From: Caldifarciminota bacterium
GTDB taxonomy: Bacteria; Hydrothermota; UBA3072
Direction of reading: 5' to 3'
Assembly: GCA_023131835.1 (NCBI GenBank)
Contig: JAGLZA010000183.1
Span: forward strand, 1-40,703
Length of the DNA: 40,703 nt
Each line of letters starts with the position of its first letter. Position 1 is the stretch's first letter. Below the pieces are notes generated by a model. The model was not told where the DNA came from, did not search any database, and was given only the letters and a program-made list of their open reading frames with translations. The position numbers and the translations under genes are program-made. This document shows positions 17,084-40,440 of the stretch, piece by piece.

Positions 17084-17635
17084 ATGAAGAGATTATTGTG
17101 GGTGTTTATCTTAATTGTTATAAGTTGTTCCCCTTCGGTAGAGGGATTACTTGATGATGGCTGGAGAGCCTTCGAGGCTGGTGATTTTGAAACTGCAAAA
17201 TCCTGTTTTCTTGATGCAATAGAAATAAATAATGATTGTGCTGATGCGTATAATGGTCTTGGGTGGAGTTGTGCAAAATTGGATGATATTTCACAAGCAA
17301 CAAGGAGTTTTCAATCTGCGATAAACAAGGATCATAATTTATGGGATTCCTATGCTGGTTTTGCAATTGTAGAGATGGACTACGAAAATGCAGTAAATAA
17401 AGCAAGCACAGTAATAACCAATGAGCCGAATTATTGTTTTTCTCATGATACTACAGTAACCATTGAGGATATCTATCTCTGTCGTGCTCACGGAAGAGTA
17501 TGTCTGGGTGAGTTTGAGGAGGCTCTTTCCGATGTCCGGGTGATTGATCCAACCTTTAATGCTGATATAAACACCCACGAAGGCAGAGAAGAACTAATTA
17601 GAAGAATAGAAGAACTCCTCATTTCCTATCTGTAG
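17084..17635 (+). CDS. Small TPR-repeat lipoprotein
   Basis: The product is a 183-residue predicted lipoprotein. A basic start and hydrophobic segment end in the lipobox VISC, followed by two or three tetratricopeptide units, such as DGWRAFEAGDFETAKSCFLDA and DAYNGLGWSCAKLDDISQAT. TPRs hold protein partners; the partner here is unknown. ATG 17078 overlaps the protease stop, but ATG 17084 gives a cleaner MKRLLWVF signal, so I chose that; either may be used. The overlap with the subtilase gene suggests a shared role at the cell surface. An intrinsic terminator follows directly. Confidence 0.75.
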   Translation: MKRLLWVFILIVISCSPSVEGLLDDGWRAFEAGDFETAKSCFLDAIEINNDCADAYNGLGWSCAKLDDISQATRSFQSAINKDHNLWDSYAGFAIVEMDYENAVNKASTVITNEPNYCFSHDTTVTIEDIYLCRAHGRVCLGEFEEALSDVRVIDPTFNADINTHEGREELIRRIEELLISYL

Positions 17636-17673
17636 GGGGGATTTCCCAGTCCCGATCACTTCCCCCCTTTTTT
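17634..17673 (+). terminator. Rho-independent terminator after the TPR lipoprotein
   Basis: The arm AGGGGGGA (17634-17641) pairs with TCCCCCCT (17661-17668), and TTTTTT follows to 17673. The loop is long (about 19 bases). The left arm starts in the TAG stop codon. Confidence 0.7.
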
Positions 17674-17780
17674 CTCGCAAAGCACGCAAAGGATTGAGTT
17701 AGTCAGTTTGTGGGTTAGTCTGTTATTTATAGTGGCACTGGACAATGTATCCCTATACCTAAAATATTCCAAGAATTGTA

Positions 17781-17803
17781 GAGACGAGGCAATGCCTCGT
17801 CTC
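17781..17803. repeat. Palindrome 1, core GACGAGGC
   Basis: The arm GAGACGAGGCA is followed by one base and its exact complement TGCCTCGTCTC (11+1+11). It is preceded by TTGTA, the same edge as the next palindromes. Confidence 0.85.
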
Positions 17804-17811
17804 CCTTGTAG

Positions 17812-17830
17812 GGGCGTATTGCATACGCCC
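17812..17830. repeat. Palindrome 2, core GCGTAT
   Basis: GGGCGTAT and ATACGCCC are complementary arms around a TGC centre. It is preceded by TTGTAG. The same core recurs at 18208-18234. Confidence 0.85.
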
Positions 17831-17846
17831 AATGGTCCAAAAATGT

Positions 17847-17870
17847 AGGGGCAATTCATGAATTGCCCCT
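17847..17870. repeat. Palindrome 3, core GCAATTC
   Basis: AGGGGCAATTC and GAATTGCCCCT are exact complementary arms around AT. The left edge is ATGTAGGGGC. Confidence 0.88.
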
Positions 17871-17896
17871 AGTTGTTCCGCGCTCTGGGTGTAGGG

Positions 17897-17912
17897 GCAA
17901 GATACATCTTGC
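17897..17912. repeat. Palindrome 4, core GCAAGAT
   Basis: GCAAGAT and ATCTTGC pair around AC. The left edge is GTGTAGGGGC; the right GGGG complement is missing and TTTT follows. Confidence 0.8.
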
Positions 17913-17922
17913 TTTTCTGTAT

Positions 17923-17940
17923 GTGCGAATTTATTCGTGC
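17923..17940. repeat. Palindrome 5, core CGAAT (degenerate)
   Basis: CGAAT and ATTCG pair around TT, with GTG on the left and TGC on the right. The edge has lost the GTAGGGG form. Confidence 0.55.
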
Positions 17941-17991
17941 TAAACGCACTAAGTATTATCTTTAGGGAATTAAGTTCAATGCATTTTGCTC

Positions 17992-18133
17992 GGGGGTTGC
18001 CCTCACAAAACCGCAGTCGATTTTCCCAGCGAGAAAATCGCTGCTTCCGCTCTCTGCCTCGCTCTCGTGAGATTAAAATCTCGGAGAACCATGCCCGCTC
18101 GGCCTCCGAGAGGATTTTGTGAGGACAACCCCC
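17992..18133. repeat. 142-bp MITE-like inverted-repeat element
   Basis: The outer arms GGGGGTTGCCCTCACAAAA (17992-18010) and TTTTGTGAGGACAACCCCC (18115-18133) are complementary with one mismatch. Inside, GCAG-T-CGATTTTC pairs with GAAAATCG-CTGC (18013-18044, one bulge), GAGATT pairs with AATCTC (18069-18082), and CTCGGAG pairs with CTCCGAG (18081-18111) as an alternative fold. There is no transposase. It looks like a small non-autonomous element or a BIME-like structure. I could not define a target-site duplication. Confidence 0.65.
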
Positions 18134-18207
18134 TCGCTTTTATCATTTGATTCTGCCAGTGTGAGAAACTGAAGATTGTTAGCATTTGTCAAGTATTCTC
18201 ACATTTT

Positions 18208-18234
18208 GTAGGTGCGTATTGCATACGCCCCTAC
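18208..18234. repeat. Palindrome 6, core GCGTAT (second copy)
   Basis: The sequence begins GTAGGTGCGTAT and ends ATACGCCCCTAC, with TGC in the centre, so both edges of the family (GTAGG and CCTAC) are kept. It has the same core as palindrome 2, 400 bp away. Confidence 0.85.
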
Positions 18235-36864: not shown

Positions 36865-36920
36865 TTAATGCCTGAAGGACACCACTCATCCGTTTCTCAC
36901 TGATTAAAACAGAAACGAAA

Positions 36921-36942
36921 GGGACGTTCAATTGAACGTCCC
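36921..36942. repeat. Palindrome 7, core GACGTTCA; also a possible terminator
   Basis: GGGACGTTCAA and TTGAACGTCCC form a perfect 22-base palindrome. On the minus strand it is preceded by GGTA and followed by TTTCGTTTCTGTTTT, so it could end transcription of the caspase-like gene as well as belonging to the GTAGGG-edged family. Confidence 0.75.
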
Positions 36943-36972
36943 TACCGGATAACCCACTGCAAATAATACTAA

Positions 36973-38778
36973 TTATTTACATCTCCCGATTCGCATTCTT
37001 CTTTTTTTGCTTAGTATCCCTTCGGGTAGAATCTTTGGGGTTTGATCTGTGTATAGCTCATTTCGCGCAACTTTATAAACATTCTTTTTTACATAGTCAT
37101 AGAGTTCGCCTAATTCGATCCAGCCATTATTGTCATTATCTGCTTTTCCTCTTAACCCTTTTAATAGATAATAAGTAAATAATCCATGCCTTTTATTTTC
37201 GTAGTCGTTGGATGTCTGTTCTGCATCTGCTGCTGATAGAACAACAAACTTTGGTTTAGCTATCATCTTAGTTAATTTTACAGGGACGAGGGGTCTTTTG
37301 CCCATTGCAAGAACAGAACGCCCTTCACCTGAGAAGCAGGCATCAAGAATAATAACTGCTTCTTTAATAGTAAGTTTATTCACTGCCTTATAAAGGTCTT
37401 GCAGAGGATATAAGGTCCTTTCCGACCCAAGTCTTCCATCATAAGGCACAAGATATGTTTCTCCTTTCTCTCCAGGGGTTCCATGACCGGCATAGTAAAT
37501 GTAGAGTATAGCATTTTTATCCAGCTTTTTAGGCAGCTTATCCTCAAAAACATCCATAAAATCACCAATAGAGGCTCTGTCATCATAAAATGTAAATATG
37601 TTCTCTGGTTTTACACCGCAAACATTTTCCAGATAGATTTTAACCATCTCTGCGTCTCTCTTTGCATACTTGATATCTGGAATACTGGACTCCCGGTAGT
37701 CACTGATTCCTATAACAACAGCATAGGCATTATCTCTCTTAAAGGAACTTGCAGTTAATGGATAATCTACATCTACAAGAGTGGATAAGACCTTCTTCTC
37801 TCGCTCTATTTTCGCAGGTTGTATAGCAACTGTAAATTCCGCCTCTTTTAAGGCATCAAATCCCCTTTCTTCTGTTACCCTGACTATTACACTGGCATCC
37901 TGATATTCAATCTTATATGGTAGTAATGCCTCAAAGGTTACGTATTTTTCTCCGTTAGGAGAAATATTCGCAAGAAATTTTTCCTTGCCAAGGTAATTTA
38001 ATACGGTACTATTTCCTGAAAGCAGAACCCTGACACCCAAAGCTGTGCCTTTGCCCTGATTGGACACCTTCACCCTGAGACCTACCTTCTCTCCACCATT
38101 GAAGACCTTATCTCTGTTGTCATCTATTATCTCATAACTGAAGGTTAATTTTGGTGGAGAGGTGATATCTTGTGGAGAAACTCTGGGCTCTGCTTCAGCG
38201 TAAACAGGTTTTTTCTTCTCTATTGCTGCTATGATTTCATCCCTATCATTATTGATATCTTTTTTTAACCTTTCCATAGCTTCCCTTACGAGGTCTTCAA
38301 GCCACTTCCCTGCCGGGGGAGTCCGTGCATATTCAGCGTAAATACTGACCCATTTTTGCCTTGAGTAAGGTTCAAAGTATGTTTTTATAACCTTTCCGGA
38401 AGGATCCGAGAGCTTCAGGTTTATAAACACCTTTCCGTGCATTTTGCTTGCTGGGACTCCAAACAATGTAAATGGATACCACAGAAGACCCCATACTGCC
38501 TGACCTACTTCCAGGGTAATTACATCAACAGCGCAAAGTATGTCAGGGTCTTCTTTTGCCGGATTAACGAAAACATTCTGGATAAGGTCTCTATAAATTG
38601 CTAAACTTACGCTTTCCCGCACAAGACCGGATGGTATTTTTGCGGGTAGTCTGATGCTGATTTTTGTCTTTTGTGTTATTGGAGTTTTCAACCTAACATG
38701 TGATTGGTATTTAAGATATTGGGAACACCCAGTTGACAGTAACACCAGTCCAATCATCAATATTTTTATTCTACGCAT
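36973..38778 (-). CDS. Caspase-like (C14 family) lipoprotein
   Basis: The 601-residue protein starts with a signal and lipobox-like LLSTGC (Cys18), so it is probably lipid-anchored at the envelope. Residues 30-170 are unrecognised; 213-320 look like a CARDB/Ig-type adhesive domain with VSNQGKGTALGVRVLL. The C-terminal peptidase C14 domain (about 350-560) has the catalytic dyad His432 (YYAGHG) and Cys481 (ILDACFSGEGR), plus NKRHGLFTYYLLKGLRG. A calcium-type loop DNDNNGWIELGE follows (547-558). It has its own near-consensus promoter and a TCCCTCC-complement ribosome site. Bacterial homologues are mostly of unknown function; proteolysis is inferred from the dyad. Confidence 0.9.
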   Translation of the reverse strand: MRRIKILMIGLVLLSTGCSQYLKYQSHVRLKTPITQKTKISIRLPAKIPSGLVRESVSLAIYRDLIQNVFVNPAKEDPDILCAVDVITLEVGQAVWGLLWYPFTLFGVPASKMHGKVFINLKLSDPSGKVIKTYFEPYSRQKWVSIYAEYARTPPAGKWLEDLVREAMERLKKDINNDRDEIIAAIEKKKPVYAEAEPRVSPQDITSPPKLTFSYEIIDDNRDKVFNGGEKVGLRVKVSNQGKGTALGVRVLLSGNSTVLNYLGKEKFLANISPNGEKYVTFEALLPYKIEYQDASVIVRVTEERGFDALKEAEFTVAIQPAKIEREKKVLSTLVDVDYPLTASSFKRDNAYAVVIGISDYRESSIPDIKYAKRDAEMVKIYLENVCGVKPENIFTFYDDRASIGDFMDVFEDKLPKKLDKNAILYIYYAGHGTPGEKGETYLVPYDGRLGSERTLYPLQDLYKAVNKLTIKEAVIILDACFSGEGRSVLAMGKRPLVPVKLTKMIAKPKFVVLSAADAEQTSNDYENKRHGLFTYYLLKGLRGKADNDNNGWIELGELYDYVKKNVYKVARNELYTDQTPKILPEGILSKKRRMRIGRCK

Positions 38779-38864: not shown

Positions 38865-39132
38865 GGTTCAAATGGGCCTCCCCTACCCCTTTATTTTACC
38901 ACAAAGACACAAAGGACACAAAGAAGACTTTTTGTTTTTATTTTTCCCTCCACCAACCCACAAGAAAGTGAACACAAAGGAGACAAAGTACACAGAAATA
39001 TATCTTAGCTGATTGCTGTTTGGCTGTAGGCTGATGGCTGTTTATGCCGCAGATAAACGCAGAACCCGTCATTACCCCCCACTTATTTTACCACAAAGAC
39101 ACAAAGGTCACAAAGAAATCTATTATTTTTTT

Positions 39133-39187
39133 GTAGGGGCGAGGTTTCCTCGTCCACCCCTCTGGGTCAGGGGACCTGACCCCTACA
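39133..39187. repeat. Palindromes 8 and 9, back to back
   Basis: The first is GGGCGAGG-TTT-CCTCGTCC (39137-39155, one G-T pair), the second GGGTCAGG-GGA-CCTGACCC (39164-39182). The pair starts with TGTAGGGG and ends with CCCCTACA, so the common edges close the whole 55-bp unit. Confidence 0.78.
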
Positions 39188-39339: not shown

Positions 39340-40440
39340 ATGCGTTATTCGTTATGTCGAATGGGAAAGGTCTTACCATTAAAAATTCCTTTATTGGTCT
39401 TTTTAGTGACTATTTTTCTCCATTGTGGGGGAGGGAAAGGTTACAAGAAGCCATTGTGGTTAGACAGAGGTGTTTCGCCTCCCTACTATGTAGCACAGTC
39501 CACACTCCAGCCTGACAGGAAGGAAGCGCTGAATGAGGCTTTCTATGGGGCTCTGAGAGAATTCTATATTCGGGAACTGGGAATCATTCTTGATAGTGAT
39601 ACCCGGCTCAGGAAACAAGAAGTGGGAGATGAGGTAATCGTTGAGTATGAAAGTTCTATTCAGGCCAGGACATTTATAGGAGATGTTAAGGTAAGAAGTA
39701 AAAAGGAATACTTGGAACAAGAGAAGGGGAGATACCGTGGATATGTCTGTATTCTCATCCCGCAAGAAGAGATGATTCGTGCTCGCCAGAGTGTAAAGAA
39801 ATACCTGGATGAAGCTTTAGAATCTGCAGAGAAGGAAATCCAAAAGGCGGAACTATTAGAAGAAAATTCCTATACGGAAGCCCTTCTGGGTTATAAAACT
39901 GCAGCAATAATCTTAGAGGACTTGATTGATCCTATAGCCCGTGCCCTGAAAAAGAAGGTTGATGCCAGGATTCAAGCCTTAAAGCGGTTTGAGGATCCTG
40001 GTATTCAGTTGATGGAACTTCAAAGTACTGCATCCTATTTTGAGCAGGCGGAACTTATAAGATTGAACAGAGAGGAATCTTCCAATTTTGTTGATATCGG
40101 GGATACCCTCCAGTTACACTTCTCAGTAAAAAAACCAGTATACCTATATATTCTCAGTTACTGGAGAGAGCAAAAGGAAATACGGCTTCTCTATCCCAAC
40201 TGGTTGGAAGAAGAGGAAAACCTTATCTCCGGGAAATCGGTTTTCCCAAAGCGCAGCGGTTTTGTTGCCGCGCCTCCCGGGGGGTTAAATCTGCTTTTTG
40301 TAATTGCTACAAAGATGCGAATTGACCTTGATGAGAAAAGTATGGTCTTATCAAGGGAAAATCTAGAGGATTTTCTAAAATCCTTGAGAGATATTGAGAA
40401 ATACGAGATTCGGAAATTAGAAGTATTTATAAGAGAATGA
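39340..40440 (+). CDS. Putative envelope lipoprotein with DUF4384-like C-terminus
   Basis: A 366-residue exported protein. After a basic start and a hydrophobic stretch, Cys29 stands in FLHCGGG, a poor lipobox (His at -1), so lipidation is uncertain. Residues about 35-145 resemble the LPP20/LpoB-like fold (REALNEAFYGAL pattern, then YRGYVCILIPQEEMI). A helical part follows (150-235), and the C-terminal GDTLQLHFSVKKPVYLYILS with IRLLYPN is like DUF4384. DUF4384 often goes with caspase-like or kinase modules, and here the caspase-like gene lies divergently 560 bp away. The role is unknown. Confidence 0.75.
   Translation: MRYSLCRMGKVLPLKIPLLVFLVTIFLHCGGGKGYKKPLWLDRGVSPPYYVAQSTLQPDRKEALNEAFYGALREFYIRELGIILDSDTRLRKQEVGDEVIVEYESSIQARTFIGDVKVRSKKEYLEQEKGRYRGYVCILIPQEEMIRARQSVKKYLDEALESAEKEIQKAELLEENSYTEALLGYKTAAIILEDLIDPIARALKKKVDARIQALKRFEDPGIQLMELQSTASYFEQAELIRLNREESSNFVDIGDTLQLHFSVKKPVYLYILSYWREQKEIRLLYPNWLEEEENLISGKSVFPKRSGFVAAPPGGLNLLFVIATKMRIDLDEKSMVLSRENLEDFLKSLRDIEKYEIRKLEVFIRE

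Follow-up and report, generated by a model that had tools for sequence, protein, structure and literature searches.

GTAG-tagged REP elements in a Caldifarciminota genome and the association of their cores with a segment of subclass 2.4 transposases

The palindromes described here, found in a 40,703-nucleotide stretch of a Caldifarciminota bacterium genome (contig JAGLZA010000183.1 of assembly GCA_023131835.1; the whole stretch is called the window), are GTAG-tagged REPs, which are known small repeats and represent no new class. Their cores form a limited vocabulary, in which every core belongs with a transposase lineage whose gene contains that same core. The identity of the core goes with the helix segment located just after the in-gene REP and not with the rest of the protein. 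Both the palindromes and the transposases (subclass 2.4) are already known in kind, but this association, together with the exchange of the REP and the helix as a block between genes, appears to be new.

Results

Palindromes in the window

Eight GTAG-tagged hairpins are present in the window (Table 1), five at 17778-18234, one at 36920-36945 and two at 39133-39186. The initial annotation had placed six palindromes in the first cluster and three more further on. All of the latter three were found, while only five of the six belong to the GTAG family, as the sixth, at 18018-18040, lies within an unrelated, MITE-like imperfect inverted repeat of 156 bp (17985-18140). This repeat has 32 matches in the genome, some being fragments of one copy and the others 74-96% identical. 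The constant part of the GTAG-tagged hairpins is GTAG at one end, in the forms GTAGGGGC, GTAGAGAC, GTAGGTGC and GTAGGGAC. The paired CTAC at the far end is often missing. The window alone is mildly above chance, with 4 hairpins scoring at least 10 versus 0-2 in Markov shuffles; this excess of long hairpins is slight, and the genome-wide counts decide the matter.

Several other features were observed nearby. A sequence 3' of a TPR-protein gene (17632-17674, GTAGGGGGGATTTCCC...TTCCCCCCTTTTTT) resembles an ordinary intrinsic terminator rather than a REP. Intergenic, degenerate tandem stretches of the CACAAAGACACAAAGG type occupy 38890-38990 and 39080-39120, the minus strand encodes a 601-aa protein with a caspase-like Peptidase_C14 domain at 36976-38778 (Pfam E 2e-16), and the gene at 39340 carries DUF4384.

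Table 1. GTAG-REPs of the window and in-gene-REP RAYT genes of the same genome
Feature	Position	Strand	Sequence	Core and remarks
GTAG-REP	17778..17803	+	GTAGAGACGAGGCAATGCCTCGTCTC	CGAGG core, AGAC edge
One-footed GTAG-REP	17808..17830	+	GTAGGGGCGTATTGCATACGCCC	GTAT core (family B); core in and before RAYT gene G000:C212:6040
GTAG-REP	17845..17871	+	GTAGGGGCAATTCATGAATTGCCCCTA	AATTCATGAATT core; near-identical core within RAYT gene G000:C212:14158
One-footed GTAG-REP	17891..17912	+	GTAGGGGCAAGATACATCTTGC	CAAGAT core, also within RAYT gene G000:C45:6227
Double-foot REP	18208..18234	.	GTAGGTGCGTATTGCATACGCCCCTAC	GTAT core (family B)
GTAG-REP	36920..36945	-	GTAGGGACGTTCAATTGAACGTCCCT	GTTC core (family A), with a compensated G-C to A-T pair
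One-footed GTAG-REP	39133..39155	+	GTAGGGGCGAGGTTTCCTCGTCC	CGAGG core, also within RAYT gene G000:C296:2311
One-footed GTAG-REP	39164..39186	-	GTAGGGGTCAGGTCCCCTGACCC	TCAGG core, also within RAYT gene G000:C296:2311
RAYT gene	C212:6040			B core before and in gene, A core at stop codon
RAYT gene	C212:14158			AATTC core; reading frame split in two pieces
RAYT gene	C45:6227			CAAGAT core
RAYT gene	C296:2311			Four one-footed REPs: TTCGAT, CGTGAT, CGAGG, TCAGG

Census of the genome

For the census, 585 kb of contigs were sampled from the same genome without regard to REPs. This sample contains 109 GTAG-REPs, or 186 per Mb (about 190 per Mb), far more than the nine palindromes first noticed, which, had they been the total, would have spoken against a family. 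A hairpin followed GTAGGGGC in 61 of 89 places but followed control tags in only 0/9, 0/10, 0/46 and 2/79 (0-3%); a further control, CTAGGGG, gave 1/2 and is too rare to count. GTAG with a hairpin of arm 8 or longer occurred 113 times, while any other tetranucleotide tested, the overlapping TAGG excepted, reached at most 19, giving GTAG an almost sixfold lead. Most of the 109 elements are one-footed (94), with a paired CTAC foot in the other 15. Although 85% of the sample is coding, 103 are located outside ORFs of at least 120 aa and only 6 inside, according to the same crude ORF call. The flanks of the A-core REP unit are conserved no further than 28 bp. These elements are thus short hairpins with a GTAG foot, present in high copy number and mainly between genes, as in the GTAG-REP superfamily; the cognate RAYT flanked by the same repeats, another superfamily feature, was found for part of the cores.

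The intergenic placement is also what would be expected if the palindromes were mainly RNA elements (terminators or mRNA stabilisers) kept paired by that function, and such roles have been suggested for REPs in the literature. However, a T-rich stretch follows only 17 of the 109, the GTAG tag is needless for such a role, and copies sit inside transposase reading frames, making this explanation very improbable.

Core families and covariation of the arms

At least 14 core families coexist in this genome, the largest in the 585-kb sample being CAAGA, CGAGG, CAATT, CGTTC, TCAGG and CAAGG. When 28-mers were retrieved from the collected loci by their edges only, 76-97% of the resulting 63 distinct sequences matched at each of the six core pairs, compared with 26-50% after the right halves were redealt, and 35 of the 63 cores were perfect palindromes versus 0.015 expected. 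As only the edges were used for retrieval and the cores were still paired, the pairing is no artefact of a palindrome search. The arms thus covary as initially proposed, and a family with a constant edge, self-complementary cores and many copies stands. What does not stand is its supposed difference from ordinary REPs, which were said to keep one core: Di Nocera et al. 2013 (PMC3733652) described genomes in which several GTAG families coexist, and subfamilies whose stems carry complementary changes. Like members of that superfamily, the elements reported here are palindromes of 20-40 bp with GTAG at one end; several families share a genome, complementary stem variants occur, and the arrangement is intergenic and often paired. 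They differ in that at least 14 core families occur in one genome and the RAYT genes themselves contain REPs.

The pattern GTAGGGGC-N12-GCCCCTAC is held by 29 of 147 genomes of the phylum, in which several centres, such as CATG, recur with differing, compensated arms. Among the papers listed by a text search of the literature for GTAGGGGC, all were unrelated. Public-genome matches to a two-core pattern came, according to record names, from Cyanobacteria, Chloroflexi, Planctomycetes, Omnitrophota, Zixibacteria, Atribacteria, Cloacimonadota, Sumerlaeota and others, and identical 28-mers occur in more than 20 phyla. Among 87 matches to a pattern admitting 256 cores, 47 were exactly GTATTGCAATAC, with GTTCAATTGAAC and GTTTAATTAAAC found 13 times each, across many phyla. 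Such cores form no continuum, which argues against hairpin-templated copying (snap-back or quasipalindrome correction), where a mutation in one arm is copied to the other and the cores drift while staying paired. This process is consistent with the compensated one- or two-pair variants (GTTCAATTGAAC/GTTTAATTAAAC; CTTGAT/TTTGAT/CGTGAT/TTCGAT; CGAAACTT/CGGAACTT) and with the uncompensated intermediates that are also present, and the small differences of the first two sets may reflect either hairpin-templated repair or stepwise coevolution. As the general explanation, however, hairpin copying is unlikely, since large core differences also accompany replaced coding sequence outside the palindrome.

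Transposases carrying the same REPs

A search with PF01797 at first suggested that the genome has no linked transposase. It returned only five Y1 proteins of ~310 aa, which resemble the published REP-less subclass 2.1 and have no GTAG hairpins within 1.5 kb. This view was overturned by a profile from relatives, as the Pfam Y1 model, at the cutoff used, had missed the subclass 2.4 RAYTs. Short RAYTs in relatives have GTAG hairpins on their flanks, and in one group the hairpins lie inside the gene. Seven RAYTs of this group made up the profile; each of them is matched by NF047646 (REP_Tyr_transpos), at least one below the cutoff of that model. The profile recovered four in-gene-REP RAYT genes plus fragments from the window's genome (Table 1). 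Hence the REP-type (Y1) transposase that the initial annotation proposed to look for is present, as four RAYTs with in-gene REPs matching core families of the window. Their in-gene or stop-codon cores cover ~67 of the 109 sampled REPs (~60%), including most window cores, while no subclass 2.4 gene was found in this genome for the cores of the other ~40%.

The encoded proteins have the motifs of subclass 2.4 (NH[IFV]H, WQ and YIxNNP, ~194 aa). In the genome's own L188 and L189, these are MPNHFHG/MPNHIHG, WQRNYYEHIIRN and YI.NNP, within open frames of 203-213 aa; L190 has YIIDNP, and L191 has YIIMNP with YQ in place of WQ. L318, from a genome of the window's class, has the same protein and the same REP as L249. 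In other RAYTs of the phylum (L111, L117, L144, L146 and L154), the REPs flanking a single gene have differing but self-paired stems.

A set of 79 distinct RAYTs was drawn from WOR-3 and over 20 further phyla, and in 71 of them a GTAG hairpin lies after HuH and before WQ. The in-frame REP and the double-foot REPs of subclass 2.4 are both found, the 50 non-WOR-3 genomes in this set having been chosen for holding double-foot REPs. The in-gene hairpins fall in different reading frames, indicating that the DNA hairpin is kept and not the peptide. The in-gene core equals the flanking core in 33 of 48 RAYTs (permutation mean 4.1, maximum 13).

Association of the core with a protein segment

Proteins of 58 RAYT genes from more than 20 phyla were split into three segments: N ends at HuH, M lies between the REP and WQ, and C begins at WQ. 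Similarity of the cores correlated with M (Mantel 0.36; with N and C held constant, partial 0.32, p 0.0005), while the partial values were -0.03 for N and, weakly, 0.13 (p 0.018) for C. The nearest neighbour had the same core in 20 of 31 cases by M, but in 5 of 31 by N+C and 1 of 31 by C; with M trimmed to the 30 residues nearest to W, so that those adjacent to the REP are dropped, the number was still 18 of 31. Although the segments are short and their trees weak, these lean in the same direction: core labels require 7 changes on the M tree and 13 on the N+C tree. On the N+C tree, a single clade was rejected only at p 0.036 for B-core genes and was not rejected for A-core genes (0.20).

Conservation is lowest in M (mean identity 24%, versus 42% for N and 49% for C), as would be expected of a hypervariable, weakly constrained linker whose link to the core merely reflects shared ancestry. 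However, M identity is 0.40-0.60 in same-core pairs and 0.20-0.34 in different-core pairs in every N+C bin holding same-core pairs, the partial Mantel value persists given N and C, and M is 88% identical where two genera retain an unchanged core (L191/L333, see below). We therefore regard the linker explanation as improbable.

A further coupling, between the edge and the C block, relates REP base 7 (G/A) to residue W+3 (N/other), with counts of 44:2 against 1:11 (Fisher 4e-9, kinship ignored): in the 58 RAYTs, GTAGGGGC feet go with WQRN and GTAGxGAC feet with WQ-x-R/S. With only two independent pairs on supported branches, it is no more than a lead.

When the RAYT profile was compared with sequences of solved structures, the sole match was E. 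coli TnpA_REP (PDB 4ER8; E 1.2e-6), over the HuH and WQ..YI..NP blocks. By chain order, M corresponds to the region with alpha-3, which contacts the REP bulge in that structure, and C to the WQ region, where residues around WQ contact GTAG. The E. coli protein differs in that the aligned chain has no visible REP insertion and its REP is bulged rather than a perfect palindrome. AlphaFold models of three sequences (pLDDT 36) were too poor for placing the helix against DNA.

Replacement of the REP block between genes

Clear replacement at the DNA level could be read in few pairs. L355 and L358, from two Atribacteria genomes, carry different REP cores. Their DNA is 97-100% identical over nt 1-271, 27-60% over the REP block (271-390), 80-83% at 391-450 and then 83-100% to about nt 600; the L358 segment is similar to its counterpart in L316, a WOR-3 gene that carries the core of L358. 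L188 of the window's genome and L323 of a sister genus occupy one locus with both flanks collinear. The block that starts shortly before the in-gene REP and ends at WQ cannot be aligned between them, although these genes differ beyond the block too (N 51%). Core A is kept at the stop codon of both, which suggests that the window's own lineage moved from core A to core B at this locus.

In a control pair from the same two genera, L191 and L333 share a core and are 88% identical in M, 91% in N and 96% in C. L190 and L340 have different cores and a drifted M (47%), which looks like gradual drift. Taken together, the first two pairs and the last suggest that exchange and gradual change both occur. 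Because large core changes track the replacement of the REP and the adjacent helix, neither snap-back copying nor selection for pairing alone, the two causes initially put forward, is favoured as the main one.

Discussion

We think it likely that GTAG-REPs are processed by subclass 2.4 TnpA_REP proteins, in which target and helix form a linked block whose replacement gives rise to new REP families. The REPs would be miniature, non-autonomous elements that fold as single-strand hairpins and are processed by HUH/Y1 transposases (TnpA_REP/RAYT subclass 2.4); their mobilisation by these proteins is suggested by copy number and the literature. The conserved transposase block WQ..[ED]H..R would read GTAG, hence a constant edge, while the helix after the in-gene REP (alpha-C; alpha-3 of E. 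coli TnpA_REP) would mainly read the core, hence cores that differ between transposase lineages. Subclass 2.4 genes usually contain a REP of their own, inserted in frame after HuH and before Tyr and beside this helix, and the same core usually recurs in their flanks. Recombination, the presumed route, would replace the REP and helix block and so provide the transposase with a new REP family. Several such genes per genome, plus legacy copies, could produce the mixture seen in the window, and the coexistence of many kinds of REP in one genome would follow from the presence of several related transposases, each with its own kind in-gene. Exchange of this cassette would alter both arms at once, so that large differences do not require snap-back copying. 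We give roughly even chances to the stronger proposal that target and reader move as one cassette, with exchange between genes and phyla as the main route to new REP families and an A to B switch at the genome's own locus.

Specificity changes through the exchange of one protein segment between homologous genes are familiar from target-recognition-domain shuffling in HsdS of restriction-modification systems. Here, unlike in HsdS, the DNA target lies inside the exchanged segment, and the likeness is by analogy only. Quentin et al. 2018 (PMC6006769) describe TnpA_REP subclass 2.4 (Bertels group 4) as having double-foot REPs as well as an in-frame REP located after HuH and before Tyr, and judge that in-gene insertions may have little effect on the protein. 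Our genes share with the subclass, as described there, the HuH, WQ and YIxNNP motifs, the ~200 aa length, one-footed and double-foot GTAG REPs, in-gene REPs and scattered phyla. A core-helix association, block replacement between genes, exact core words common to more than 20 phyla and these REPs in WOR-3 were not found in the text of that paper that was consulted.

For REPs to gain new cores and yet keep the hairpin, the transposase and its target must change together. A transposase gene that holds its own target beside the covarying segment offers a physical answer to this joint change. The L355/L358 pair, naturally near-identical and differing almost only in the REP block, is ready for experiment.
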